In this document: positions 1,708-22,907 of the stretch, in pieces
Layout: every line of letters starts with the position of its first letter
Numbering within the stretch: position 1 is the stretch's first letter
Source of the DNA: Endozoicomonas sp. (ex Botrylloides leachii)
Lineage (GTDB): Bacteria; Pseudomonadota; Gammaproteobacteria; Pseudomonadales; Endozoicomonadaceae
NCBI GenBank assembly: GCA_028728195.1
Contig: JAQYUY010000099.1
Coordinates: 1-40,962, forward strand
Length of the DNA: 40,962 bases
Direction of reading: 5' to 3'
Notes under the pieces: model-generated
Database searches by the model: none
Seen by the model: only the letters and a program-made list of their open reading frames with translations
What the model was told of the DNA's origin: nothing
Position numbers and translations under genes: made by a program

Positions 1708-4449
1708 ATGTTTGCTTCTTTAGTTAAGAAATTTGTAGGTAGCCGCAACGACCGGCAGCTAAAACGTATGAGAAAGCTGGTCAAGACCATTAATGCGCTT
1801 GAGGACAGTTTGTCTGGCCTTGATGATAGTGCGTTGAAGGCGAAGACACAGGCGTTCAAAGAGCGCTTCAACCGAGGGGAAACACTTGATCAGCTGCTGC
1901 CTGAAGCATTTGCTGTGGTGCGAGAAGTGGGTAAGCGCGTTATGGGTATGCGCCATTTTGACGTTCAGCTTGTGGGGGGGATAACCCTTCATGAGGGGCG
2001 TATTGCTGAAATGCGCACGGGTGAAGGAAAAACGCTAGTAGCTACGTTGCCTGCCTATCTAAATGCTATTTCTGGGGAAGGTGTTCATGTGGTAACAGTG
2101 AATGAATACCTTGCCAGCCGTGATGCCAACTGGATGAGACCTATTTATGAGTTTTTAGGACTAACCGTTGGGGTTATTGTTCCTCAGCAGGAGCCTGATG
2201 AGAAGCGAAAAGCGTATGAAGCAGATATAACGTATGGCACCAACAATGAATTTGGCTTTGATTATCTCCGAGATAATATGGCTTTTCGCAAAGAGGATAA
2301 ATTTCAGCGCACTTTGTCATTTGCTATTGTTGATGAGGTCGATTCAATATTAATTGATGAGGCAAGAACACCTCTGATTATTTCTGGGCCTGCTGAAGAT
2401 TCTTCAGAACTTTACAAAAAGATGAATCTGCTGGTGCCTAAACTCACTCGTCAGGAAGTTACAAGCGAAGGCGAAGTAAAAGATCCGGGCCATTTCATTA
2501 TCGATGAAAAAAGTCGTCAAGTGGAGCTGACAGAACATGGCCATCAGCACATTGAAGAGCTTTTACAACATGAAGGAGCGTTACCGGAAGGTGAAAGTCT
2601 TTACGCACCACAGAACCTTAATCTATTACATCATGTTAATGCCGCATTAAAAGCACGTGTTTTATTTTCGCGTAATGTTGAGTACCTTGTTCAAAAGGGC
2701 GAGATCATGCTGGTTGACGAGCATACCGGCAGGTCTATGCCGGGTCGTCGTTTATCTGAAGGTTTACATCAAGCTCTGGAAGCAAAAGAAGGCTTAGACA
2801 TTCAAGCGGAGAGTCAGACTCTTGCTTCTACAACGTTTCAAAATTATTTCCGTAACTATAAAACCCTATCTGGTATGACTGGCACCGCTGATACCGAGGC
2901 GTTTGAACTGCAACAGATTTATGGTTTGGATGTTGTGGTTATTCCAACACATAAACCTATGGCGAGGAAGGACTTCAATGATCTTGTCTATCTGACAATT
3001 GAAGAAAAGTACGAGGCGATTATTGCAGATATCCAAGAGACTGTTGCAGTAAATAGACCGGTGTTGGTCGGTACGGCTTCTATTGAATCTTCTGAGCGGC
3101 TGTCAGCAGCATTGAATAAAGTGGGCTTAAAGCATCAGGTGTTAAATGCAAAGTTTCACGAAAAAGAAGCGGAAATTATTGCTCAGGCTGGCAAGCCAGG
3201 TGCTATTACGCTAGCAACTAATATGGCTGGTCGAGGTACGGATATTTCATTGGGGGGTAACTGGGAAGCAGAAGTTGTTAAGCTCAATAATTCCTCGGAT
3301 GAAGTTATTAGTCATGCTAAGAAAGAGTGGCAGAAGAGCCATCAAGACGTACTAGCAGCTGGTGGTCTTCACATTATTGGTACGGAGCGGCATGAATCTC
3401 GGCGTATTGATAATCAGTTGAGGGGCCGTGCAGGCCGTCAGGGTGACCCTGGTTCTTCACGCTTTTATTTATCTTTAGAAGATAATCTGATGCGTATTTT
3501 TGCCTCAGACCGAGTTAAAGGGTTTATGAAGGCTCTAGGAATGGATAAGGGAGAAGCCATTGAGCATCGCATGGTCAGTAATGCGATTGAAAAAGCCCAG
3601 CGTAAAGTTGAAGGACGTAACTTTGATATTCGTAAGCAGTTGCTTGAGTACGATGATGTGGCTAACGATCAGCGTAAAGTGATTTACAAACAGCGCGATG
3701 AGCTGTTAAATGCTGAAGATATTTCATCCAGTATTGAGGCGCTAAGGGATGATGTGGTTCATGCGATAATCAGCAGTCATATCCCGCCCCAGAGCCTAGA
3801 GGAGCAGTGGGATATAGTCGGATTAGAAGAGCGTATTGCCAGTGAATTAAATCAAGAAATTCCTGTGCAGCAGTGGCTTAATGAAGACGATCGCCTTGAT
3901 GAAGATGCGTTGCGGCAGAAAATTATTGATGCAACGACTGATGCTTATCGTAAAAAAGAAGAGCTGGCAGGGAGTGACGTCCTTCGCAATTTTGAAAAGC
4001 ATATTTTGTTACGTATCCTTGATGATAAATGGAAAGAACATCTAGCAACAATGGATCACTTGCGACAAGGTATTCACCTGCGAGGTTATGCCCAGAAGAA
4101 CCCAAAGCAAGAATACAAGCGGGAAGCATTTGAGCTGTTCCAGCAGATGTTGGAAGATATCAAACATGATACGACTAGATTGTTATCGCATGTTCAGGTG
4201 CAGCAGGATGACCAGACGGAAGAGGCTGAGCGTCAACGTAGAGAAGACTTAGCTAGGCGAATGAAGTTCCAGCATGCTGCTGCTGAAAGCCCTGGAGATA
4301 GCAATGCATTACCTCCTACTGGAAAGCCAATGGAAGGTACGACTAATGTTCAACCCTTTGTCCGCGAAGGCCGTAAAGTTGGGCGTAATGAAGCATGTCC
4401 CTGTGGCTCTGGGAAGAAATATAAACAGTGTCATGGGAAAATTACTTAA
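1708..4449 (+). CDS. secA: Preprotein translocase ATPase SecA
   Basis: 913 aa; [49 protein letters not shown], and C-terminal zinc motif [18 protein letters not shown]. Confidence 0.99.
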
Positions 4450-4631
4450 CTAATGCAGTTCTGCAAGTAACAGTAGGGTGTTTTTGTTATGCTTTAGCCG
4501 TTTTATGCATAACAATACACTCGTAAATCAAGAATAAGATAAACTAAAACTAAAATAGTTTGAGAACGCATTGTTTGCTTTCAACAGAACGGTATGATTC
4601 ACAAATGCAGTAAAAATGTTAGATCAGCACA

Positions 4632-5540
4632 TCAAAAGATATCTGTCTGCTTGATATGAAGATCTGACAGCTTATTCAAATAGCCTGAAATATCATCGCG
4701 TTCTCCGTATCGTGGGTAGTGATGCATTTCAGCGCAAGGTCTGGAGTTTACCTCAAGAAGAATACTTTTCTGTGCATCGTAGTCATGTTCAATACCTTTC
4801 TCCATAATAATATCGATCCCAAGAATATTGGCATCAAAAATATGAAGTATTTTTTCCATTAACAGAATGTTTTTAGTCGGAATTTTGTCTTTCTCAACTG
4901 TTTCAATAATACCTCCCGAAGGCAGGGCCACTCTATGAAAAAGCAATATCCGTTGTCTATCGTCAGGTATCGAGTTGATACTGAGACCCTGCCTTGCTAG
5001 GAATGACTGCGTTTTCTTTTTTTTCTGAAGAGGGTACATCCACTGGTGCAGCCCCATTTTATTACGAATGTTGTTTTCTTTGTCAATTAAAGCGGAAATA
5101 CTGTCTACACCGTTTCCAATAACAAAGGGAGCATACCGCTGTATGACGGAAATAACGCGGCCATCTGCCACTAATACGCGGTAGTTTTTTCCCTCCAGAT
5201 ATTGTTCAACCACACTGACAGGCCACCATATTTTTGCCAGAAACATAGCTTTCCAAAGTGACCAAAAATTATGAATTGGGAAGTAACTTCCTCTTGAGAA
5301 CCCTCCAACATTGGGTTTGATGACCAGAGGGAAGCCATGTTTTTTTGCAAAAAGGTGAGCCTTCCAAGGATTGATAAATGTTACGCCTTTAGAATGAGGT
5401 ATATTGTGTCGTGCAAATGCTTCGCGTGCCTGTTTTTTGGAACGACAGCTTTTACGTACCTCTAGGGGGTTGAAATTTGTACAGCCGTTAAGAAGCTTAC
5501 TATTAATACATTGGTAAATAAGTTTTTTTATATAAATCAA
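4632..5540 (-). CDS. ATP-grasp ligase, resembling the cyanophycin synthetase / GshF ATP-grasp domain
   Basis: KQAREAFARHNIPHSKG..., ATP-binding FPLVIKPNVGGFSRGSYF, VVEQYLEGKNYRVLVADGRVISVIQRYAPFVIGNGVDSI, metal-binding ILLEVNSRPCAEMHHYPRYGE. Confidence 0.75.
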   Translation of the reverse strand: MIYIKKLIYQCINSKLLNGCTNFNPLEVRKSCRSKKQAREAFARHNIPHSKGVTFINPWKAHLFAKKHGFPLVIKPNVGGFSRGSYFPIHNFWSLWKAMFLAKIWWPVSVVEQYLEGKNYRVLVADGRVISVIQRYAPFVIGNGVDSISALIDKENNIRNKMGLHQWMYPLQKKKKTQSFLARQGLSINSIPDDRQRILLFHRVALPSGGIIETVEKDKIPTKNILLMEKILHIFDANILGIDIIMEKGIEHDYDAQKSILLEVNSRPCAEMHHYPRYGERDDISGYLNKLSDLHIKQTDIF

Positions 5541-6424
5541 GAAGTCGCTCTCCTTTTGTTAACCAATGCTTTATATTTTCGGGTAAACAATTTTTGAAAA
5601 AGAATAGATTTATTTCTCTGACTCTTAGGGATGGTTTCTGTAATGATTGCCAGCTCACGGCCAAATCGGTTGGCAAGTAGTGCTTTATAACAAAACCCAA
5701 CATTTTTACAAAGAAGTACAAGTGGCATAGGAAGGAAGAGATTAATCTCAAAAATTTTAAACTTTCCGGTCAATAAATCTTTTATGCTATTGGCCTTTAT
5801 GCCATAACGTGCCGTACGAAATGTTCTAATGGTTTTTAGATAGCCCCATAATATGGCCAACTGTTCATCGTTAAATGAATCAGTAATATCAATGTAAGAC
5901 GTTGCCTGATTATAAACCCCATTAACGGGCAATGAGTGTTCACTATCGTTTAAAACTTCTGAAATGGATAGCGTAGAAAAATTATCCAGTGAGTCTGGTG
6001 ATGAAATGAGGTAAACTTCAAATTCCCTGTTACCAATAGCGCTCTCTTGAATTAAGTATGGCGCAGCACTTTTTGCTCTTTGCTTAAGAACTTTAGTGAG
6101 TTCGGCAGCGCTATTAATTCGAACAACCCCCGTGGAATTCTGTCCCCACTCCGGTTTTAGAAATACCGGATAGTTTATTTTTTGGGGAATAAAATCAAGC
6201 TTATATTGATTTAAACGCCAGCATGGATGGATTAACTCATTTATATCGAGCTTGGAAAATAATCCTTTACTTTCATTAAAGTATTCAGCATTCAGTTTAA
6301 AAAAATTAGATGGCATCACTCTACGCAAAAGACAGTGCCATATATAAGTAATAATTAGTAAGGTGCGGATAATCATAAGATTTATATAGTATGCACTCGG
6401 TCTATATCTCTTACCAAGATACAT
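5537..6424 (-). CDS. Second ATP-grasp family protein
   Basis: PVFLKPEWGQNSTGVVRINSAAEL, YLIQESAIGNREFEVYL, FKIFEINLFLP look like ATP-grasp lysine, hinge and E-x-N motifs. Overlaps downstream gene by 4 bp. Confidence 0.65.
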   Translation of the reverse strand: MYLGKRYRPSAYYINLMIIRTLLIITYIWHCLLRRVMPSNFFKLNAEYFNESKGLFSKLDINELIHPCWRLNQYKLDFIPQKINYPVFLKPEWGQNSTGVVRINSAAELTKVLKQRAKSAAPYLIQESAIGNREFEVYLISSPDSLDNFSTLSISEVLNDSEHSLPVNGVYNQATSYIDITDSFNDEQLAILWGYLKTIRTFRTARYGIKANSIKDLLTGKFKIFEINLFLPMPLVLLCKNVGFCYKALLANRFGRELAIITETIPKSQRNKSILFQKLFTRKYKALVNKRRATS

Positions 6425-6923
6425 TGACCTTATTTTTAATTAGGCTGTAATTAGCTATAGCAATTACCATTCCTAAAATTAGGATTGAAACAGCAGAATA
6501 AAAAAGTGAGCCACCGTCTTCTTTTCCTTCATGCTGCACCACAATACCCAAAGGGGATGCTAGATGGAAGAAGACAGCCCCAAGCATAATGATGGATGCA
6601 GCAAATCCGCCAAGGCAATGGAACCACCGCACATCAACTACGGGCTTGTAATCAAAAAGCTTTGATAAAAATAACAAGATAATAGGAATAAGCAATACCA
6701 TGCTGACTATCAGTTCGGTTGCACCAACAGCAATAGCACCGTATTGAGTAAACCAAGCGCCAATTTCTTGATTAAAAACATCGCCAATCCATTGTCCGAT
6801 AGTGCTAAAAATATGAACTGTATCAGGGTGACCTGAAAATTTATAGGGAAGAGAGAATAGAAAGATCTTGGCAATCCATGCGACAATAATCCAGCTACAT
6901 AGACGAATAATTGTACTTAGCAT
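6411..6923 (-). CDS. DoxX-like multi-pass membrane protein
   Basis: 170 aa with several hydrophobic segments and DoxX-like SLPYKFSGHPDTVHIFSTIGQWIG. Overlaps the next gene by 14 bp. Confidence 0.6.
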   Translation of the reverse strand: MLSTIIRLCSWIIVAWIAKIFLFSLPYKFSGHPDTVHIFSTIGQWIGDVFNQEIGAWFTQYGAIAVGATELIVSMVLLIPIILLFLSKLFDYKPVVDVRWFHCLGGFAASIIMLGAVFFHLASPLGIVVQHEGKEDGGSLFYSAVSILILGMVIAIANYSLIKNKVNVSW

Positions 6924-6947
6924 AATATGATTTCCTCAAATTCATTC

Positions 6948-7412
6948 TTACTTGAGAATAGCGGACCAATGTTGATCTGCTTTCTTAATTGACTCTTCTT
7001 TATCTGCTAACCATTTCTTTTTTACTGAAGCATCGTAGTTTAGATATAACTTACCATTTTCAATAGACCATTGTTTCGGGTCACTTTTAGCGGTGTGCCC
7101 TTGAGCCATGGCCCATGCGCAGTAACCGCCATATTGAGGAGCGTATTTCTTAGGGTTAGCTTTGAATAATTCTAGGTTTTCTATGCTACTGAATAACCAT
7201 TTTGCACCCATGTATTTGGTGGTATACCGATCACTGCCTTTCTTAGGCTTGCCTTCAGTAAAGTATGCGACCGTATCGTAACCGCTAACAGCTTTATTAT
7301 TAAAAAATCCTGTATATACTCGATCTGTAGCCATTACTGATGTGCTTGTAATAAGAAGTACTAAAGCTACTAGTAAATGTCTAAGCGGCACGTTCCAATA
7401 GTTAGGCTTCAT
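6948..7412 (-). CDS. YHS domain-containing exported protein
   Basis: Signal peptide followed by AVSGYDTVAYFTEGKPKKGSDRYTTKYMGAKWLFSSIENLELFKANPKKYAPQYGGYCAWAMAQGHTAKSDPKQWSI, characteristic of YHS-domain proteins. Confidence 0.85.
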   Translation of the reverse strand: MKPNYWNVPLRHLLVALVLLITSTSVMATDRVYTGFFNNKAVSGYDTVAYFTEGKPKKGSDRYTTKYMGAKWLFSSIENLELFKANPKKYAPQYGGYCAWAMAQGHTAKSDPKQWSIENGKLYLNYDASVKKKWLADKEESIKKADQHWSAILK

Positions 7413-13050: not shown

Positions 13051-14295
13051 TTAAAAATACCGTTTTATGCCAGAGGCTATTTCTTCACCTTTTCTGCTTT
13101 TTTCTTTATTTGTTGATACGATGTTATCGCCTGCTTTATTGCGGGGCCTTTCATTGACTTCTGTTACCGCTTCACTCCTTCCTTGAGGGATATGTGGCTC
13201 AGGACTCGAAATGGTTCTAAAGGCATCTGTGAGTCCCGTATCATCTGGTGGCGTGTTAAAATGTGAAGCAGAAGCTACATTATTACCCGTAGTCATGTTC
13301 TTTCTGGCGGCATTAACGGCTTCTCCAAGTGCCTTAGCACCACCAGCAAGGTGAGAAGTACTTTCTCTGATCATTGATGCACTCATATTTGTAGCAGCGA
13401 TTGCCCCAGCTGCTGCCCCAGCTGCTATGGCATTACTATTTACATTTCTGCTGCCGATTGATGCACCCGTGATAACACCAGAAAGTAAAGCGGGTATTTT
13501 GTCTGTTAAAGTATATAAAATAACCACGACGACAAATAAAACGAACATTTCTTGCAAGTTGATTCCTGCTTGCATTTTGGTGTAGTAGTCATCTAAAAAG
13601 TTTTTTCCTATACCAATGATAAATATCATGGTAAATAACCGTGCGCCTAATCCAAGTACTGTTTTATAATAATTAATGGCAATATCTGTGGTCCAACGTG
13701 AACCGCCAAATCCCAAAAAGAAAACACCTGCATAAGCCAATATCCAGCCTGAACAGATAAGAATTAGCACGTTAACACTAATGAGCGTAAGCAGAAATAA
13801 AATAATGCCACCTAATATCAAACCAGCCATTGCGCTTGGTGGTGACCATAAAGATGCATTATTGATAACCTTAGTAATGACTTCAAAGCCAATATCCATA
13901 ATACTAGAGGGTGATATTTTTGGCCCCAATCCTGTTGCTTCTCCTGCTATTTGTCGTAATGAGTTGATGATAGCGTTGGCTATTTCAGGACCGTTGGTAA
14001 GTAACCACCAGAAAAAGCCTGTAAAAATAGTAAAGCGTATAAGCTCAAGAAAAAATGCTTGAATATCTTCTTTTTCAAGCGCCATTTGACCAAAAGTCCA
14101 AACCATACTCATTAGTACCAAGCTCCAGTAAAGATAACTGGCATGCTTAATAACGACAGCTGACCATTGGTTGAAGGATGACTGGTAGAGAGTCATGATA
14201 TTGTTTACAAGGTTATGACTATCGATATCAGCATAAGCACTAGGTACAAAGAGTAAGGGAAAAAGCAAATATAGTGACGATGGCTTTATAGTCAA
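13051..14295 (-). CDS. trbL: P-type conjugative transfer protein TrbL (VirB6-like)
   Basis: Polytopic membrane protein with ICSGWILAYAGVFFLGFGGSRWTTDIAINYYKTVLGLGARLFTMIFIIGIG, last gene of trb cluster; start codon TTG. Confidence 0.92.
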   Translation of the reverse strand: MTIKPSSLYLLFPLLFVPSAYADIDSHNLVNNIMTLYQSSFNQWSAVVIKHASYLYWSLVLMSMVWTFGQMALEKEDIQAFFLELIRFTIFTGFFWWLLTNGPEIANAIINSLRQIAGEATGLGPKISPSSIMDIGFEVITKVINNASLWSPPSAMAGLILGGIILFLLTLISVNVLILICSGWILAYAGVFFLGFGGSRWTTDIAINYYKTVLGLGARLFTMIFIIGIGKNFLDDYYTKMQAGINLQEMFVLFVVVVILYTLTDKIPALLSGVITGASIGSRNVNSNAIAAGAAAGAIAATNMSASMIRESTSHLAGGAKALGEAVNAARKNMTTGNNVASASHFNTPPDDTGLTDAFRTISSPEPHIPQGRSEAVTEVNERPRNKAGDNIVSTNKEKSRKGEEIASGIKRYF

Positions 14296-14449
14296 TTACT
14301 TACCCTCAAAGTTATTCCATTTAGAGTTACGATAACTTCATTAAAAAAACGGTTGTATTGAAAGGTAGTGATCAAATACGTATACCCGTATATTGAAAAA
14401 CTAAACGGATTTAAACTTAGTAAGTATCGGTTTTGTCTATCACAGTTGG

Positions 14450-15247
14450 TTACCATTTGGTTTGATCGGATTTCTTTATCGGTTTAGTAGACATAAACTG
14501 AACGGTTGCGGCTTGTTGCTGAGCCTGTTGATTTATTTCCTGTTGTCGTTGAACTGCTTGTGCATTCTGCCCAGCAAGCATGACTGTCCTAAGTTGAAGT
14601 AACTGGTTAACTTGAGCGCTAGCCAATAGATTAGCATATTGAATAGCCTTCATTTGACCATCGGCATTTTGAGCGGTCTGTTGCAAATTTTCCAAATGCT
14701 GCGCATCAGATTCAAGAAGTTTCTGTTGATTTTCGATTGCACTAAACAAGGCATCATTGGCACGTTTTTGCGATGTAGACCCAATACGACCATTTTTGTT
14801 TAATGAATCCAGATCTGCCTGTGTGCAGGCATTACCATTAAAACAGGGCTGTGATTTGTAGTGTTCTATATCTTGAAATTGATTGAGATACTGCTTAAGG
14901 CTACCAGCCTGTTCGACGTAGTAACGCATCTGATTTTGAATGCTAAGTATCTGGTTGATAGTGCTTTTTGCCTTATCCCAATCAAAATAGTGTAGTGTAT
15001 TGGTGTTCTGTACCATATTATGGTACTGATTTTTTTCCGTGGAAAGTTGACTTCGCTCTGTTGATAGTTGGCTTCTTGCTATCGAGAGTTCCATTCTAAG
15101 CTGTTGCAATTGAATTCTCATAACATTGAGCTGCTGAAAGGCTATGCCTATGGCCTGTACATCTACTACAGGAATAAAACCTGTCATTAGCGACTCTATA
15201 GTGAATACAAACGCTAATACGATAATCTTTCTGTTTAGCGACATCAT
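14450..15247 (-). CDS. trbJ: P-type conjugative transfer protein TrbJ (VirB5-like)
   Basis: Signal peptide, coiled-coil Q-rich protein, position between trbI and trbL. Confidence 0.85.
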   Translation of the reverse strand: MMSLNRKIIVLAFVFTIESLMTGFIPVVDVQAIGIAFQQLNVMRIQLQQLRMELSIARSQLSTERSQLSTEKNQYHNMVQNTNTLHYFDWDKAKSTINQILSIQNQMRYYVEQAGSLKQYLNQFQDIEHYKSQPCFNGNACTQADLDSLNKNGRIGSTSQKRANDALFSAIENQQKLLESDAQHLENLQQTAQNADGQMKAIQYANLLASAQVNQLLQLRTVMLAGQNAQAVQRQQEINQQAQQQAATVQFMSTKPIKKSDQTKW

Positions 15248-16536
15248 GATTTCCCTCCAGCTGGATAGTCAAATGACCGGTAGGGTGTTTTAAATGTTAG
15301 ATCCTTGGTTAAGGTTACGTTAAAGCGGTAACCGGGGCGGATTTCCAGTGTCGGTGCTATATTCATATTTTTAGTAATCAACTGTGCAGCCGCCTGCCCT
15401 AACTGCTGACCAAGCGCCTCGTTGATCGCATCACTGGTGCTTATTCTATTATTGTTGCCTATCTTATTATCTTCTTGTTGGCTTAGCGTGATGCCAGCGG
15501 TGATGACTGACATCATTAAGGCGCCGCCGAAGATCCGCAAATAATGGTTATTGACCTGATCCTTAAAGCCAGAATACCCAGCGCTGTCAGCCCCTGGCAT
15601 AGATCCTATATCTAATGCTTTGCCGTCAGGAAAAATAATACGTTGCCAGCCAATTAGCACGCGAGACTGGCCAAAGGCAACCTGACTGGCATAAGTGCCC
15701 ACCAGACGTGCTCCCTGGGGAATTAACAAATAGCGCCCGGTGGGGGTGTCATAAACATTCTGAGAAACCTGCGCCATAATTTGTCCTGGAAGATCTGAAT
15801 TAATCCCTGAAATCATAACCGCAGGAATTACAAAGCCTGCTCTAACCTCATATGCAGAGCGAGGTTCTTGCATTTTGTTATCCAGTTTCCAGCGGTCTTT
15901 TCCATCGCTACCAGCAAAATCTGCATAAGCTGCTGATGAATCGTTAGACCTACCTGTTGTATTGTTTCCAGACACTGTTTTGCTAGTGCTGTTAGTCAAT
16001 AAGGCATTATTGCTTGCACCATAAGACTGTGATAATGAAGAAACTGCTACAGAAGTGTCAGCGATAAGTGCTTGTTGAAATTGATTTTCTCTCATCTCAT
16101 TAATTTTTTTTTGCTGCTCGGTCTGTACTGGATGTGTGGTTGCTTTTGATAATGAAGATTTAGTATAGGCTGCTATGGCGGCTTGATAAGTAGGCGGCGA
16201 TGATTTTGAAACTGTTTCTTTGTGACTCATAACCTCTGGACTGGCTGGAATAAAGCTTTGCCCTTCTCCTTTCACCATTTCTTTGGCGTAACTTAGTGCA
16301 GACTGTGCTCCCCCCTTATGATCATTTCCTGCTGTATTTGAATCATTACGCTCAGTGCGCGAGCGATCATAAGCGCCCAGACCAATAAGTAGGGTAAAAA
16401 ATAATACGATGCCAAAACAGATGAACAACGCCCGATTATTAATACGACGAACGCCTTTACCGCTAGGCTCAAAAGAGCGGTCAGGCGATGTTTTTACATT
16501 CTGATTTGGGTCAACATTGTCATTTTTTTTAGTCAT
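15244..16536 (-). CDS. trbI: Conjugal transfer protein TrbI (VirB10-like)
   Basis: YEVRAGFVIPAVMISGINSDLPGQIMAQVSQNVYDTPTGRYLLIPQGARLVGTYASQVAFGQSRVLIGWQRIIFPDG. Start probably MTKKNDN (16536) rather than track start 16587. Confidence 0.96.
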   Translation of the reverse strand: MTKKNDNVDPNQNVKTSPDRSFEPSGKGVRRINNRALFICFGIVLFFTLLIGLGAYDRSRTERNDSNTAGNDHKGGAQSALSYAKEMVKGEGQSFIPASPEVMSHKETVSKSSPPTYQAAIAAYTKSSLSKATTHPVQTEQQKKINEMRENQFQQALIADTSVAVSSLSQSYGASNNALLTNSTSKTVSGNNTTGRSNDSSAAYADFAGSDGKDRWKLDNKMQEPRSAYEVRAGFVIPAVMISGINSDLPGQIMAQVSQNVYDTPTGRYLLIPQGARLVGTYASQVAFGQSRVLIGWQRIIFPDGKALDIGSMPGADSAGYSGFKDQVNNHYLRIFGGALMMSVITAGITLSQQEDNKIGNNNRISTSDAINEALGQQLGQAAAQLITKNMNIAPTLEIRPGYRFNVTLTKDLTFKTPYRSFDYPAGGKS

Positions 16537-16984
16537 GGTCTGTTGCTCCTTTATAAGTCCATTTACCGGCTGGAACATACATGCCATCTACAATATCATA
16601 GCCCCGTGTCAGCACATCATTACCTACTAACAGGGTGACGCGTGTCATACTCGCAGAGGGCTCATCAATGATATAAGCTAAGGGAAAAATAGATGAGCCT
16701 TTACCGGCTGATTCGATCTTATTTTCTGGTGCATATTCCCGTACGGCATAACCAGAACGCCGAAGATTTTTTACCAGTTGTCTGCCGTAGTCATCATTGA
16801 TCGGTTGCTTAAATTGAAGCCAGGTATGTGCAGGTGGGTAGAGTCGAGCTAATGCACGAGTGGTGTCGTAAGCAATGCCAGCTTGGGCGTATTGGTCCAT
16901 AACCGGTGAGAAGTTACCATAATGGGATGTTGTGGCACACCCTGAAAGGAAAGCGCTAACGGCTAAAAACATCAGTTGTTTCAT
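16529..16984 (-). CDS. trbH: TrbH-like lipoprotein
   Basis: Lipobox FLSGC near N-terminus; location between trbG and trbI as in the RP4 order. Confidence 0.75.
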   Translation of the reverse strand: MKQLMFLAVSAFLSGCATTSHYGNFSPVMDQYAQAGIAYDTTRALARLYPPAHTWLQFKQPINDDYGRQLVKNLRRSGYAVREYAPENKIESAGKGSSIFPLAYIIDEPSASMTRVTLLVGNDVLTRGYDIVDGMYVPAGKWTYKGATDHD

Positions 16985-17865
16985 GATGAGCCTCTCTTGA
17001 TGGTCACCTTCTGTTGATGATTGCCAACACCGGAAATCAAAATAGCTTCATCAAATACTGAATCGACGATATAGCGGTCGTTTTGTACTCGGTAGTTGAC
17101 CATAGCTAACTGAGCCTTGGAAAATAGCCCTCTTTCTTTAGTCACCACCATCAATGCAGGTGCATCTTTTTGATGTAAAATGCTAGGCATTTGGATAATA
17201 GTTTTTTGGCCGTCATTATATACGCGCACAGGTTTCCAGCTGGCATTGCCTTTAATGAAGTACTTAAAGTCTAGGTTGCCCAGATATTCGTGAGTTTGTG
17301 GTAGTGTGGCTTGTTGGCGTTTTTTTGCTTGCTGTTGCTCAATGGCTGCCCATTTAGCTTCTTCCTGCTCAGGGTAGATAAAACCCACTTTGGGCATCCA
17401 ATCTTTCTGGTCAGATTTAGCAACTATATTATAAGTGCGCCGATTTGTTGTGATCACCATGGAGGTTTCTAAGCCTACATCATGGGGTTTAAAGTTGACG
17501 TTGATAGTGTCACCGGCTATGGAGGGTTTAATTGTCCAACGTGCTGTATCGCCTACTTCCGGTGTATCTGATAAGGTTTCACCGGGTTGTAATTGCAGGT
17601 TACAGACCTTAAACGGTGCGCAGATGATAGTGGCTTGTTGGACGCCATAGATATAACGAATAATGCCATCTTTGCCAATAATAGGTTTATTGTTTTTCTC
17701 GTTAACGCGCTTTTGCCATTGATGATACTGGATAATGGCTTCTTTCTCTTGAGTGGTTAGCTTTGGCTCTTTTCCCGAGAAATATGAGCGCTCAAAATTA
17801 GAGGTGGCGAGCAAATTAAAAGAGGGAAAAACCGATAGCATAAAAACCAATAGTTGCTTTTTCAT
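16981..17865 (-). CDS. trbG: P-type conjugative transfer protein TrbG (VirB9-like)
   Basis: GVQQATIICAPFKVCNLQLQPGETLSDTPEVGDTARWTIKPS ... VGFIYPE; start likely MKKQLLVF (17865) with signal peptide; track ORF extends to 17901. Confidence 0.94.
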   Translation of the reverse strand: MKKQLLVFMLSVFPSFNLLATSNFERSYFSGKEPKLTTQEKEAIIQYHQWQKRVNEKNNKPIIGKDGIIRYIYGVQQATIICAPFKVCNLQLQPGETLSDTPEVGDTARWTIKPSIAGDTINVNFKPHDVGLETSMVITTNRRTYNIVAKSDQKDWMPKVGFIYPEQEEAKWAAIEQQQAKKRQQATLPQTHEYLGNLDFKYFIKGNASWKPVRVYNDGQKTIIQMPSILHQKDAPALMVVTKERGLFSKAQLAMVNYRVQNDRYIVDSVFDEAILISGVGNHQQKVTIKRGSS

Positions 17866-17882
17866 TGCAATACCTTGAGGAA

Positions 17883-18593
17883 TTAAACCTGCTTTGACCA
17901 TGCAAAGTTGCTGATAAACAGTCCATTAGGGTTCTTCAGCAACTGTTCTTCACTGGTATCCTGATCAGCGGGTGAATAATAGATAGAAACTTGTGCTCGC
18001 CAGTTACTTTTACTGGTTAGCGTACCGCTGCGATCACGTACTATCTCAACCCATTCAACCTCCCAGGTTGTCTTCGTTTCTGGTATAACCGTACTTATCT
18101 GAACACTAACCGTTTCACGTGCTGCTTTTTGAAATACATTGCGATGTTGATAAAAATCATTCATTTCAACAAAAGCTGCATCTTTTTGGTCAAGCTTTGA
18201 ATAAACATCAAAGATGGCCTTGCGCTGGAGCTCTGCATCCGGTGTAATCATTCGAGCATGGGTAATAAAAGCAGCTACTTCTGCCCGAGTGACCAGTTTA
18301 CTGGGGGTCTTAGCATGCTGAGCCGCTCCGTATACGACGGTTTTTCCAAGTTTGTCTACTTCTACGATATAGGGCACAAACTTGGACTGTGAACCGATAT
18401 AAATCAACCCACCTACACTGGCCAGAGTGATCATTAAGCACAGCAGTGCAGCTAACTGCCAAAACAGCTTTTCAGTTTTAAGTCGAGCTGTATGGTCATT
18501 CCATGAACGTCGGGCGGTCAGATAGGGGGTGCGCCATTTTTTTGGATCTTGGCTATCTTTTGCAGGGTGCTTAAGTTTTGATAGTATGCTCAT
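17883..18593 (-). CDS. trbF: Conjugal transfer protein TrbF (VirB8-like)
   Basis: NPYLTARRSWNDHTARL-like start (WRTPYLTARRSWNDHTARLKTEKLFWQLAALLCLMITLASVGGLIYIGSQSKFVPYIVEVDKLG). Confidence 0.94.
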   Translation of the reverse strand: MSILSKLKHPAKDSQDPKKWRTPYLTARRSWNDHTARLKTEKLFWQLAALLCLMITLASVGGLIYIGSQSKFVPYIVEVDKLGKTVVYGAAQHAKTPSKLVTRAEVAAFITHARMITPDAELQRKAIFDVYSKLDQKDAAFVEMNDFYQHRNVFQKAARETVSVQISTVIPETKTTWEVEWVEIVRDRSGTLTSKSNWRAQVSIYYSPADQDTSEEQLLKNPNGLFISNFAWSKQV

Positions 18594-21169
18594 GCTATGT
18601 CATCCCTTTTATCGAACAAGGTATGATCTACATTACGCCTGCTCATCCAGTGATGAATCCATTCATCACCGTAAGTTCGTTCCAGTTTTTTCACCGCAGC
18701 TACCTCTTCTTTGTCAGAGACGCCTACAAAGCTCAAAGCTAATTTTCCCAGCCCTAGCTGAAAGAGACGCTGCCCTTCCTCAGAAAATACAAAATAGTCA
18801 CGCTTTTTCGTCGCCTTCGCCACGATATTAATTTGCGGGTCACGCAAGCCAAAGGCTTGGTAGATTGCATAGATATCTGGGTTGTTTGTATTTGCCTCTG
18901 GGTTAGGCAAGAAAATATTACTGGCAGTCCATGAAATCACTTTACTCATCAATCCAGCATTTTTTGCGTCATCAATTCCTTGTGTAGAAAACAGTACGAT
19001 GGCATTTTCTTTGCGGAACACACGTAACCACTCTTCAAACCGGTCGCTGAACATTTTATTACGGAACATCAGCCAAGCTTCATCGAGAGATATCACTGTT
19101 GGCCTACCATCAAGGGAACGCTCTATACGCCGGAATAAATAAGATAATACCGGCATCACATACATTGCTCCCATATTCATCAGGGTGGCCATCTCAAAGA
19201 CGGTAAAGTCAGATAGGGTTAGGTCATCTGTCTGGGCATCGAGTAAATTGCCCATAGGGCCATCAATCAGGTAGGCCGATAGTGCTTCACGTATTTCACT
19301 GTCCTGCACAGCTGTTGCAAAATCAGATAGAGAACGCGATTGACTACGATGACTCATATTTTCAATGGCTTCACGAATCAAGCTGCGCTTGAATACACCA
19401 ATATCGATACCACTGAGCGATAGCAGCAGTTCAATCCACTCACATGCCCATGCTTTATCGCTGCGGGTTTCTAAATATTGTAAGGGACATAAGCCAATCG
19501 AACTGTCATCAGCACCTAAATCAAAGTGCAGTCCAGACCGCCCATTGGTGCACGCTTGAATACCCGCTGCTAGCGTATAAGCAGAGTTACCTTTGTCAAA
19601 GGCAAACACTTGAGCTCTTTCATAACGCATAAACTGTGCTAGCGTGGTTAGCAGAAAGGTAGACTTACCACCGCCAGGACTACCAATAATGGATGTATGT
19701 CCCAAATCACCAACATGAAAATTGAGTAAAAATTGTGTTGTGCCTTGGGCAATACAAGCCATCAATGGGGGGCTGTCTTTTGGGTAAAATGGGCATGGGT
19801 TGTGCTCTCGACCTGTCCAGATACTACTGGTGGGAATAAGGTCTGAAAAATTCAAAGTATTAATCAAAGGACGACGGATATTCTCTACACCATGTCCAGG
19901 AATACTACCTAACCAAGCATCCATGGTATTGATATCTTCTACCCGTGCAGCAAAGCCTAGTTTTTGAATCATTTGACGAATTGTTCGTACCGATTCGGTT
20001 AGCTTGATTCGATTCTCGTCCATAATGACTACTACGCTGGTATAATAGCCTTGAGTGATCAGGCCACTGTTTACATCTGCTAGTGCCGCTTCAGCGTCAT
20101 TAACCATATCTGCGGCATCTTGATCAATTGCGCCTTTATAATTATTAAGCAGCTTGTCTACAAAGCCACGCACTTTTTGTCGCCACTTTTTACGGTATTT
20201 TTCTATATGGGCTATGGCCTCATGGTTATCAATAAAAATAAAACGATTTGACCACCGATATTCACAAGTTACTTCAGCCAGCGCTGAGAGGATGCCGGGA
20301 TAAGATTCCATAGGAAGGCCTTCCAGAGAGACTACCTGAATAAATTTGTCGCCAATACGAGGCACTACGCCGCTCCATAGATCTTGGCCGCCAATAATAG
20401 CATCGAGATAGATGGGATTTTTAGGCAGAACAATGGGCTGCTTAATGCCTGTGACACAGTATTGCAGCCACTGCAGGAAGAGGTCGTGAGTGATAGTATT
20501 GCCGGTCTTGTCACTAACTTTTCTAGCGGATAGCCGCTCCATGGACAGGACCACCCCAAGATCATCGGCAAGGGTTGAGCAGTCTTTTTTAAACTGATCA
20601 ATGATACTTTGTGTGCGAGCTTGACCTTCTAAAGGCGGTGTATCGTCATCAAATAATAGCTCGACGAATTTTTGCTGTGCCAATAATGGGGGAAACCAAG
20701 TCACGGTTAACACAAAATAGCCGCGATACATGGTTCCCATAGATTCAAACATTCGACGACGCTCTTCATCTATGGCTTCTGTTAGCGCATCAGGAAAGCT
20801 AGATGCTTCTCGATCAAAGTATTTTGGCGCTGGCTCACGAACAGCATCGACATGAAGCATCCAACCACTGTCCATTTTATTGGCCAGAGCCTGATTAATC
20901 CGAGCGATTACATTTTCCTTTTCATTATCGGTGGCACTGTTATGATCAGGCCCCCGATAGATCCAAGCAGCCATTAATGAGCCGTTTTTTCCAACAATAA
21001 CGCCGTCGTCTACCATAGCTGCATGATTTAATAAATCGACTAACCCTGCGTCTTTGCTACGGTGTTTTTTTAGATTAAGGTCCTGATCTACTCTGTAGAT
21101 CCGTTGCGCCAATATTAAAACAAGGAAAACACCCAATCCGGCAATCAGGTAAGTGATTACAGATAACAT
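18590..21169 (-). CDS. trbE: Conjugal transfer ATPase TrbE (VirB4-like)
   Basis: 859 aa; Walker A IIGSPGGGKSTFLLTTL; Walker B TVISLDEAWLMF. Confidence 0.97.
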   Translation of the reverse strand: MLSVITYLIAGLGVFLVLILAQRIYRVDQDLNLKKHRSKDAGLVDLLNHAAMVDDGVIVGKNGSLMAAWIYRGPDHNSATDNEKENVIARINQALANKMDSGWMLHVDAVREPAPKYFDREASSFPDALTEAIDEERRRMFESMGTMYRGYFVLTVTWFPPLLAQQKFVELLFDDDTPPLEGQARTQSIIDQFKKDCSTLADDLGVVLSMERLSARKVSDKTGNTITHDLFLQWLQYCVTGIKQPIVLPKNPIYLDAIIGGQDLWSGVVPRIGDKFIQVVSLEGLPMESYPGILSALAEVTCEYRWSNRFIFIDNHEAIAHIEKYRKKWRQKVRGFVDKLLNNYKGAIDQDAADMVNDAEAALADVNSGLITQGYYTSVVVIMDENRIKLTESVRTIRQMIQKLGFAARVEDINTMDAWLGSIPGHGVENIRRPLINTLNFSDLIPTSSIWTGREHNPCPFYPKDSPPLMACIAQGTTQFLLNFHVGDLGHTSIIGSPGGGKSTFLLTTLAQFMRYERAQVFAFDKGNSAYTLAAGIQACTNGRSGLHFDLGADDSSIGLCPLQYLETRSDKAWACEWIELLLSLSGIDIGVFKRSLIREAIENMSHRSQSRSLSDFATAVQDSEIREALSAYLIDGPMGNLLDAQTDDLTLSDFTVFEMATLMNMGAMYVMPVLSYLFRRIERSLDGRPTVISLDEAWLMFRNKMFSDRFEEWLRVFRKENAIVLFSTQGIDDAKNAGLMSKVISWTASNIFLPNPEANTNNPDIYAIYQAFGLRDPQINIVAKATKKRDYFVFSEEGQRLFQLGLGKLALSFVGVSDKEEVAAVKKLERTYGDEWIHHWMSRRNVDHTLFDKRDDIA

Positions 21170-21195
21170 GTGTTAATAACCTTTAGTGTTATGGT

Positions 21196-21531
21196 TTATT
21201 GACTGTACTGCTTAACCTGAGTAGGTGTGTTGATACGGTAAGGAGTACTTCTAGCTGGGTAATAGCGTTTATAGCGGATATTCCGGATATAGATATGTCG
21301 CAGCTTTGGATCCACCTTGGCCAATTTGCGAAAACACGCTTTTCCGATTAACCATATTGCAATGCTCGAGATCACCATCACTGTACGCAAAGTGAAAGAA
21401 AACACCTGAACTGCACTAAAGAGTAAAGTGCAGGATAGAAGACCAGAGAGCATGATTAACTCCCGGTCTCCTCCCATAAATAATGTGTCTCTACAGCCTA
21501 CCTGACGGATCGGCGTGTGTCTGATCGTCAT
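21196..21531 (-). CDS. trbD: Conjugal transfer protein TrbD (VirB3-like)
   Basis: Small membrane protein (HTPIRQVGCRDTLFMGGDRELIMLSGLLSCTLLFS) between trbC and trbE. Confidence 0.92.
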   Translation of the reverse strand: MTIRHTPIRQVGCRDTLFMGGDRELIMLSGLLSCTLLFSAVQVFSFTLRTVMVISSIAIWLIGKACFRKLAKVDPKLRHIYIRNIRYKRYYPARSTPYRINTPTQVKQYSQ

Positions 21532-21532
21532 G

Positions 21533-21934
21533 CTATGCTACCTGTATGACAGGGGGTAATGCTTTGTATATCATGGCAATTTCGGCGCCGTGACCAAACA
21601 AGCCCTCCATAATATTTTGTGCCGCAATAATTAAGGCCATAATTAATACCAAAAAGATTGATGAGCGTAAAAAATGATTCAGATCACCTCCAAAAATCAA
21701 CGCACCGCCAGTGCCTACAATACCGATGATAGCTAGGGTAAAAGCCACCGGACCCGTGATAGAACTGCGCAAATCTTTCAGCCAGTTTTCGTACGGCAGA
21801 CCGCCGCCGTGACCAACACTAGCCATTGCATCATTAGAAATAAATAAAAGAGCTATTAATGTGACTAGCAGTAGCCATAGGACTTTAGTGTGTGCGCCCA
21901 ATTTTAAAACTTTTGTATTGTACATACTCTTCAC
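21533..21934 (-). CDS. trbC: TrbC-like pilin precursor (VirB2-like)
   Basis: [77 protein letters not shown], close to RP4 TrbC pattern. Confidence 0.95.
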
Positions 21935-21938
21935 CTCC

Positions 21939-22907
21939 TCATAAGGCTCTTATCAGATACTGATTATTCTCATAGCCAATGACTTCGATAATCTCATCAA
22001 TGCACCGGCCAGCAGGAATGGCTGGGTCTTTTTTAATAAACACCACTAGGTGAACAGCATCTGCTATCAGCGGCTCAATCTCTCTTGGTGCCGCTTGATT
22101 GCGAGAAATCAGGCTTTTCATTCGAGTGAGTGAGTCTATTGCTGAGTTAGCATGAATAGTAGCGACTCCGCCAGGGTGTCCGGTATTCCAAGCATCGATT
22201 AAATCAAGGGCCTCAGCACCACGCACTTCGCCTACTAAAATACGATCAGGACGCATGCGTAAGGTGGTCTTCAGTAGTTGGGTCATATCAACGTTAGCTT
22301 CACTAGACGTTAGATACTGCACGAAGTTCTCAGCAGTACACTGTATCTCACCATTATCCTCAATAATGAAGATCCTTTCATTGGGGAAGGTTTTTACCAT
22401 TTCATGGATAACGCCATTTGCAAGCGTTGTTTTCCCACTACCACAACCACCACTGAGTAAAATGTTTTGGTGATTAGTAATAGCTTGACAAAGGGTGTTG
22501 GACTGAGTCTGTGTCATAACGCCTGATGTGACATATTGCGCCAAGGTGAAAATAGCACTGGCTTTTTTGCGAATAGAAAAAATACCTTGGGGAACAATAG
22601 GTGGCAGTTGTGCCGCGAAGCGTGAGCCATCTAATGGCCATTCGCCTTCGAGTAAAGGGCTATTACGTGTTGTAGTTTTTCCTAAATAACCGGAAACTGT
22701 TCGGATAATCGACTCAACTCGCCAAGAAGAAAGGCAGCCTACTACCTGCATAGGTTTGCCGAGTTGATCAATCCAGAGCTTGCCATCTTGGTTGCACATC
22801 AGCTCAATGGTTGTTGTCTGTTCAAGAAGATTTAGAATCTCTTGACCAACTTCACGAGCTAGCTTCTCTCGAGCTCGCTGTTTGGTGGAGTCAATATCAA
22901 CAGTCAA
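21939..22907 (-). CDS. trbB: P-type conjugative transfer ATPase TrbB (VirB11-like)
   Basis: Walker [70 protein letters not shown]. Confidence 0.97.

Follow-up and report, generated by a model that had tools for sequence, protein, structure and literature searches.

What would two dissimilar ATP-grasp enzymes make when their genes are packed behind those of a YHS-domain protein and a DoxX-like membrane protein? The question is raised by positions 4632–7412 of a 40,962-nt stretch of DNA (hereafter the window) from Endozoicomonas sp. (ex Botrylloides leachii), contig JAQYUY010000099.1, for which an earlier note made from the sequence alone had proposed an uncharacterised operon. The reading preferred here, at a probability of about 0.55, is that the locus is a pared-down version of a conserved operon, of mainly marine distribution, in which two ligases carry out stepwise amide synthesis with a dedicated transporter.

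Four closely packed ORFs were confirmed on the minus strand where the earlier note had placed them, encoding the YHS protein, the DoxX-like protein and the two ATP-grasp enzymes, GRASP2 and GRASP1. The cluster begins with the gene for the 154-aa YHS protein (6948..7412), which is followed after the reported gap of 24 nt by that for the 170-aa DoxX-like protein (6411..6923). The next ORF, for the D-Ala-D-Ala-ligase-like GRASP2, reaches 6424 and had been described as overlapping the DoxX-like gene by 14 bp. In alignment, homologues of GRASP2 begin at residue 17 of this ORF, so the probable start is the ATG at 6376, giving 279 aa from the conserved start (5537..6376) and a 34-nt gap in place of the overlap. 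The second reported overlap, of 4 nt between the GRASP2 stop and the GRASP1 start (5537..5540), recurs in most relatives and indicates probable translational coupling. GRASP1, a stand-alone ATP-grasp module of the cyanophycin-synthetase/GshF type with 302 aa (4632..5540), starts with TTG behind a purine-rich, Shine-Dalgarno-like stretch; most relatives share this start position and have ATG or GTG there instead. Because all four genes keep their order in other genomes, the cluster is not a chance arrangement. Promoter and terminator signals at the locus showed no excess over shuffled sequences. Beyond GRASP1, a space of 182 nt (4450..4631) extends to the convergent secA (1708–4449, plus strand), and the MFS and DinB genes found in relatives are absent here. 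Elsewhere in the window, minus-strand genes at 13051–22907 look by eye like a P-type/conjugative type IV secretion system with VirB4-, VirB8/9/10- and VirB11-like members.

The profile and structure searches suggested in the earlier note recovered the YHS and ATP-grasp families, and AlphaFold models compared by Foldseek gave ATP-grasp folds for both ligases. ATP-grasp ligases catalyze ATP-dependent carboxylate-amine ligation. GRASP1 aligned over residues 33–286 with the NCBIfam cyanophycin synthetase model at 145.9 bits (cutoff 850), with only the ATP-grasp module matched; the protein lies outside that family. A PDB profile search matched CphA (7e-33), and the AlphaFold model of GRASP1 (pLDDT 89.3) resembled the CphA module with a TM-score of up to 0.78. 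GRASP1 is thus akin in sequence and fold to the ATP-grasp module of CphA1/CphA2, but it stands alone, without the remaining CphA parts. GshF, which combines a GshA-like part with an ATP-grasp, was matched in its ATP-grasp half only, at 83.2 bits versus a cutoff of 425, which places GRASP1 outside the GshF family as well. The earlier suggestion that one of the ATP-grasps is an amide ligase of the cyanophycin/GshF type was borne out by these profile, PDB and fold matches.

GRASP2 is more remote from characterized enzymes. It scored about 26 bits with the NCBIfam D-Ala-D-Ala ligase models, roughly tenfold short of their cutoffs of 245–310 and hence outside these families, and the Pfam D-Ala-D-Ala ligase C-terminal domain was reached only by the window member (27 versus 24 bits), the other members tested remaining under the cutoff. 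The best PDB fold matches of its AlphaFold model (pLDDT 90.3) were D-Ala-D-Ala ligases, with which it shares the ATP-grasp motifs, but the TM-score was about 0.5, the identity 13–19%, and the short N-terminal region is replaced by a hydrophobic helix. Profile comparison detected no similarity between GRASP1 and GRASP2 (1.5% probability), in line with the two having been called dissimilar. Both qualify as members of the ATP-grasp superfamily by their fold, ATP-binding Lys and Mg-binding Glu/Asn. These residues, K75, E263 and N265 in GRASP1 and K74, E210 and N212 in GRASP2, were invariant in family alignments, covering 47 and 55 diverse members of the two ligase families, in keeping with the plausible catalytic motifs originally picked out (KPNVGG and LLEVNSRP in one enzyme, KPEWGQNSTG and FEINLF in the other). 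Such conservation fits GRASP1 and GRASP2 being active ATP-dependent carboxylate-amine ligases. The N-terminal region that binds the substrate in classical ATP-grasps looks short in both, and substrate specificity is therefore not readable from either protein. The graspetide ligase PsnB occurred among the lower-ranking fold matches, as might be expected if the pair modified a ribosomal peptide, in the manner of graspetide synthesis, or a protein. This appears extremely unlikely, given that GRASP1 is much nearer to cyanophycin synthetase in sequence and fold, that the genes abut with little room between them for a precursor gene, and that family clustering of ORFs of at least 80 aa yielded no conserved small ORF.

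The assignment of the first gene was upheld by Pfam YHS (40.7 bits, cutoff 30.3) and by the NCBIfam family NF041384, YHS (seleno)protein (164 bits, cutoff 70), to which the protein belongs. It carries a conserved GGYCAW motif and a hydrophobic N-terminal stretch (residues 10–28) resembling a signal peptide. The DoxX-like label holds in part: four hydrophobic segments fit a small four-helix membrane protein, and distant links to DoxX_2 and MauE exist, but the window protein itself matched no Pfam family, DoxX, DoxX_2 and MauE included. DoxX_2 was reached, weakly, by only 2 of 28 relatives of this protein, while its paralogues match MauE/DoxX and one of them passes the MauE cutoff. As a membrane or periplasmic accessory, the two proteins, of which the YHS protein is exported, probably work in or across the membrane; their role in the operon, the redox or metal function suggested earlier included, is a matter of speculation.

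Among 116 genomes sampled as relatives, the window's own included, GRASP2 was found in 12, that is, in 11 of the 115 others. All 11 of these carry GRASP1, the DoxX-like gene and an MFS transporter of about 400 aa adjacent to it, and 8 of the 11 an adjacent YHS gene. YHS paralogues are so common (44/116 genomes) that their co-occurrence alone is uninformative, whereas strong DoxX-like orthologues (286–313 bits) were confined in this sample to cluster-positive genomes, being present in 11 of the 11 others and replaced in cluster-negative ones by weak paralogues of at most 63 bits. The MFS family, which scores under the Pfam MFS_1 cutoff, followed the same pattern, being present in all 11 other cluster-positive relatives and in none of the 104 cluster-negative ones (Fisher p ~1e-15, phylogeny ignored). 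Pairwise distances of GRASP1, GRASP2 and the MFS correlated with one another (r 0.79–0.86). The cluster is rare overall, occurring in 12/392 genomes of an order sample and 2/399 of a phylum sample, with the window's genome counted in both.

A scan of 84,980 species, in which a single-sequence query found nothing and an alignment query was needed, located GRASP2 homologues in no fewer than 163 species, almost all of them from the sea. The neighbourhoods of the best 80 of the 163 loci were examined, 68 of them with enough flank; as these 80 are the highest-scoring half and many are related, the counts are not independent events. Downstream of GRASP2 on the same strand lay GRASP1 (63/68), the MFS (61/68), DinB (27/68) and TANGO2 (16/68), and upstream DoxX (47/68), YHS (46/68), a cysteine dioxygenase (CDO)-like gene (9/68) and a decarboxylase-like gene (8/68). 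The conserved core is GRASP2-GRASP1-MFS, and YHS/DoxX is a frequent, replaceable accessory module outside it; the fuller operon, mostly marine, reads YHS - DoxX-like - GRASP2 - GRASP1 - MFS - (DinB - TANGO2). The possibility that the ATP-grasp genes never lie beside YHS/DoxX genes elsewhere, which would have dissolved the proposed operon, can thus be dismissed. What survives of the original operon picture is a conserved, co-directional cluster, while the MFS had been missed and YHS/DoxX turned out to be replaceable rather than core.

Carriers include Endozoicomonas, Parendozoicomonas, Kistimonas, Psychromonas, Colwellia, Moritella, Osedax symbionts, Desulfobulbales-type bacteria and SAR324, and many of those named belong to genera of psychrophiles or piezophiles. 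That the genes have stayed together in such distant marine bacteria, Endozoicomonas-type animal symbionts among them, leads one to expect a product that is of use in the marine environment. Together with a 67-bit match of GRASP1 to N-acetylglutaminylglutamine synthetase, these habitats would suit a soluble compatible solute, an N-acetylglutaminylglutamine-like peptide made against salt, cold or pressure whose level the MFS only tunes. Such a solute seems quite unlikely, since 67 bits falls well short of the cutoff of 569, lineage may account for the marine bias, and a dedicated MFS suggests export. The DinB family, with its conserved histidines, could in turn point to a glutathione-like pathway for a low-molecular-weight thiol, in which DinB would act as a thiol transferase and DoxX/YHS in redox reactions, GRASP1 matching the ligase half of GshF. 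A thiol is nevertheless very improbable: DinB is optional and missing from the window cluster, the cluster holds no cysteine ligase, and similarity to GshF is common to cyanophycin-type ATP-grasps generally. Of the earlier proposals, stepwise ligation stands, and a thiol product has no specific support past the GshF similarity and an optional DinB. DinB was also considered as a core gene and rejected, on account of its occurrence in only 27/68 loci and its paralogues elsewhere. Spread by plasmids was discarded after PLSDB gave no real homologue, as was a defence system, for which PADLOC returned negligible matches only.

Stepwise, ATP-dependent ligation, as first proposed, would be the most economical reading of two ATP-grasps with invariant motifs. 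GRASP2 and GRASP1 would be two different carboxylate-amine ligases. With ATP/Mg, each would presumably activate a carboxylate by turning it into an acyl-phosphate and couple it to an amine; acting in two successive steps, in an order that we infer, the pair would yield a small amide or a short peptide, which the dedicated MFS would then carry across the inner membrane. On the best reading, the product would be small and exported or membrane-directed, its substrates being conjectural. A precedent is the phosphonoalamide cluster (PnaB/PnaC), in which two ATP-grasp ligases assemble a small peptide bearing an unusual head group and transporters are encoded alongside; it differs in its phosphonate chemistry and other accessory genes, and YHS or DoxX proteins are not mentioned in the portion of the source considered here (PMC11867202). 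The literature searched yielded neither a description of the present operon nor a paper that brings a YHS domain together with DoxX, whether an ATP-grasp is involved or not. Judged from that literature, the operon appears to be an undescribed member of the ATP-grasp amide-ligase clusters. It gives the uncharacterised YHS and DoxX-like families a biosynthetic context open to testing.

The copy in the window is reduced, having lost the MFS. No member of the cluster's MFS family was found in the whole genome, and neither was the cluster's DinB. The sole DinB-like match of this genome (G000:C163:40443-40889) is a remote paralogue whose aligned region contains a TGA. In the tree, the window locus falls, on a long branch, among MFS-bearing loci of Endozoicomonadaceae. 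The loss means that the product either stays in the cell or membrane or is exported by another carrier, and the window copy may make a different product or be decaying. Complete decay, leaving a functionless remnant, would agree with the genome-wide loss of the MFS, the missing DinB, the long branch and a genome of 2.64 Mb, small compared with most of its family. We regard it as unlikely because all four ORFs are intact and both the catalytic motifs, invariant in relatives, and the overlaps are kept.

A possible hint at the amine comes from a variant of the operon. The loci with CDO-like and decarboxylase genes (Desulfobulbales, SAR324 and allied bacteria) form one clade in the tree, in which a cupin with the CDO HxH motif and a PLP decarboxylase lie directly upstream of GRASP2. 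The cupins scored 22.2 and 23.4 bits with CDO_I, against a Pfam cutoff of 23, with HxH and YSR conserved; the decarboxylase of one locus (L062) had its best PDB matches in GADL1/CSAD (1e-75), and that of a SAR324 locus (L082) was closest to glutamate decarboxylase (GAD). The gene pair suggests a putative route from cysteine via cysteine sulfinate to hypotaurine, and in this clade the CDO-like and cysteine-sulfinate-decarboxylase-like enzymes might plausibly, if speculatively, supply a hypotaurine or taurine amine. That the amine of the operon is of the taurine type (hypotaurine or taurine) is doubtful. A general link to taurine synthesis was rejected, as Pfam CDO_I was absent from most cluster-positive gammaproteobacterial genomes tested, and the cysteine-dioxygenase route is thus a variant supply at best. 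CDO/decarboxylase and DoxX occurred together in only 1 of the 68 loci, so that they look like alternative modules on the GRASP2-GRASP1-MFS core. Desulfobulbales-type cupins (L035, L048, L062) read HISSDD, and those of the SAR324 type HIYSDD. The Tyr at this position is a catalytic residue in cysteine dioxygenase, and the specificity of the cupins with Ser may differ. SbzM-type clusters likewise place a cysteine-oxidising cupin beside amide-forming ATP-grasp enzymes, but they are actinomycete, with an unknown product (PMC9113183), whereas the present combination is a CDO-like cupin plus decarboxylase limited to a single clade.

A second locus in the relatives points toward the membrane. It consists of DedA - ATP-grasp (GRASP3, 387 aa) - YHS - DoxX/MauE - OlsF-like ornithine lipid synthase with a convergent DinB, and it is carried by many relatives, cluster-negative ones included (L136-L141 and L144 in Endozoicomonadaceae and relatives, e.g., L140:1711-7067). 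The GRASP3 profile aligned with both GRASP2 (97%, E 1e-10) and GRASP1 (95%, E 2e-8), which do not match each other, making GRASP3 a distant homologue of the two. The locus thus shares the ATP-grasp, YHS, DoxX and DinB families with the main cluster, but differs from it in having an acyltransferase, a single ATP-grasp and no MFS. This paralogous locus ties the YHS/DoxX-like families to ornithine lipid synthesis and suggests a possible membrane or aminolipid link. No description of it was found in the literature searched, where the sole paper containing both OlsF and ATP-grasp had the latter in a reference title only. In Vibrio cholerae, a putative operon of four genes ends with an OlsF gene (PMC12186959). 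The window's genome keeps a lone OlsF-like gene near gcvH (L148:2455-4227, G000:C100), beside which the relatives' DedA, ATP-grasp, YHS and DoxX genes are absent.

With this homologous locus, the lone OlsF-like gene, the N-terminal hydrophobic segment of GRASP2 and the ornithine-taurine lipid cerilipin reported from Gluconobacter (PMC4484230), a tentative and less likely alternative takes shape. Membrane-associated ATP-grasps would activate an N-acyl amino acid, for instance ornithine lipid, at its free carboxylate and amidate it with taurine or another amine; the resulting cerilipin-like lipid, with its new head group, would be moved or organised by MFS, DoxX or DedA proteins. Several findings speak against it: the surveyed flanks of the cluster hold no acyltransferase and no OlsF-like or GRASP3 ORF, the OlsF matches of the related locus stay under the curated cutoff of 620 bits, no OlsF match at E<=1e-40 came from the cluster-positive genome G006 and G086 is missing from the matches, and paralogy is no proof of a shared substrate. 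A broader marine pathway, in which membrane-associated ATP-grasps would link a (hypo)taurine-like amine through an amide bond to the carboxylate of an acyl-amino acid or peptide to give a new sulfur amide or aminolipid head group, and in which the GRASP1/GRASP2 and GRASP3-OlsF operons would be two branches built around YHS/DoxX, is rather improbable. The GRASP1/GRASP2 operon offers in any case a starting point in the search for a new product, whether a small peptide, a taurine-type conjugate or an aminolipid.

Two further genes were observed around the ligases. Many gammaproteobacterial copies of the operon encode a TANGO2-family protein behind DinB (L039:10693-11490 and 19 further loci), and a fusion of about 715 aa, joining a VTT (DedA-like) membrane domain to a pyridine-nucleotide disulfide oxidoreductase, lies near the ligase genes at L090:4575-6740 and in six further loci (L043, L069, L091, L094, L096 and L099).
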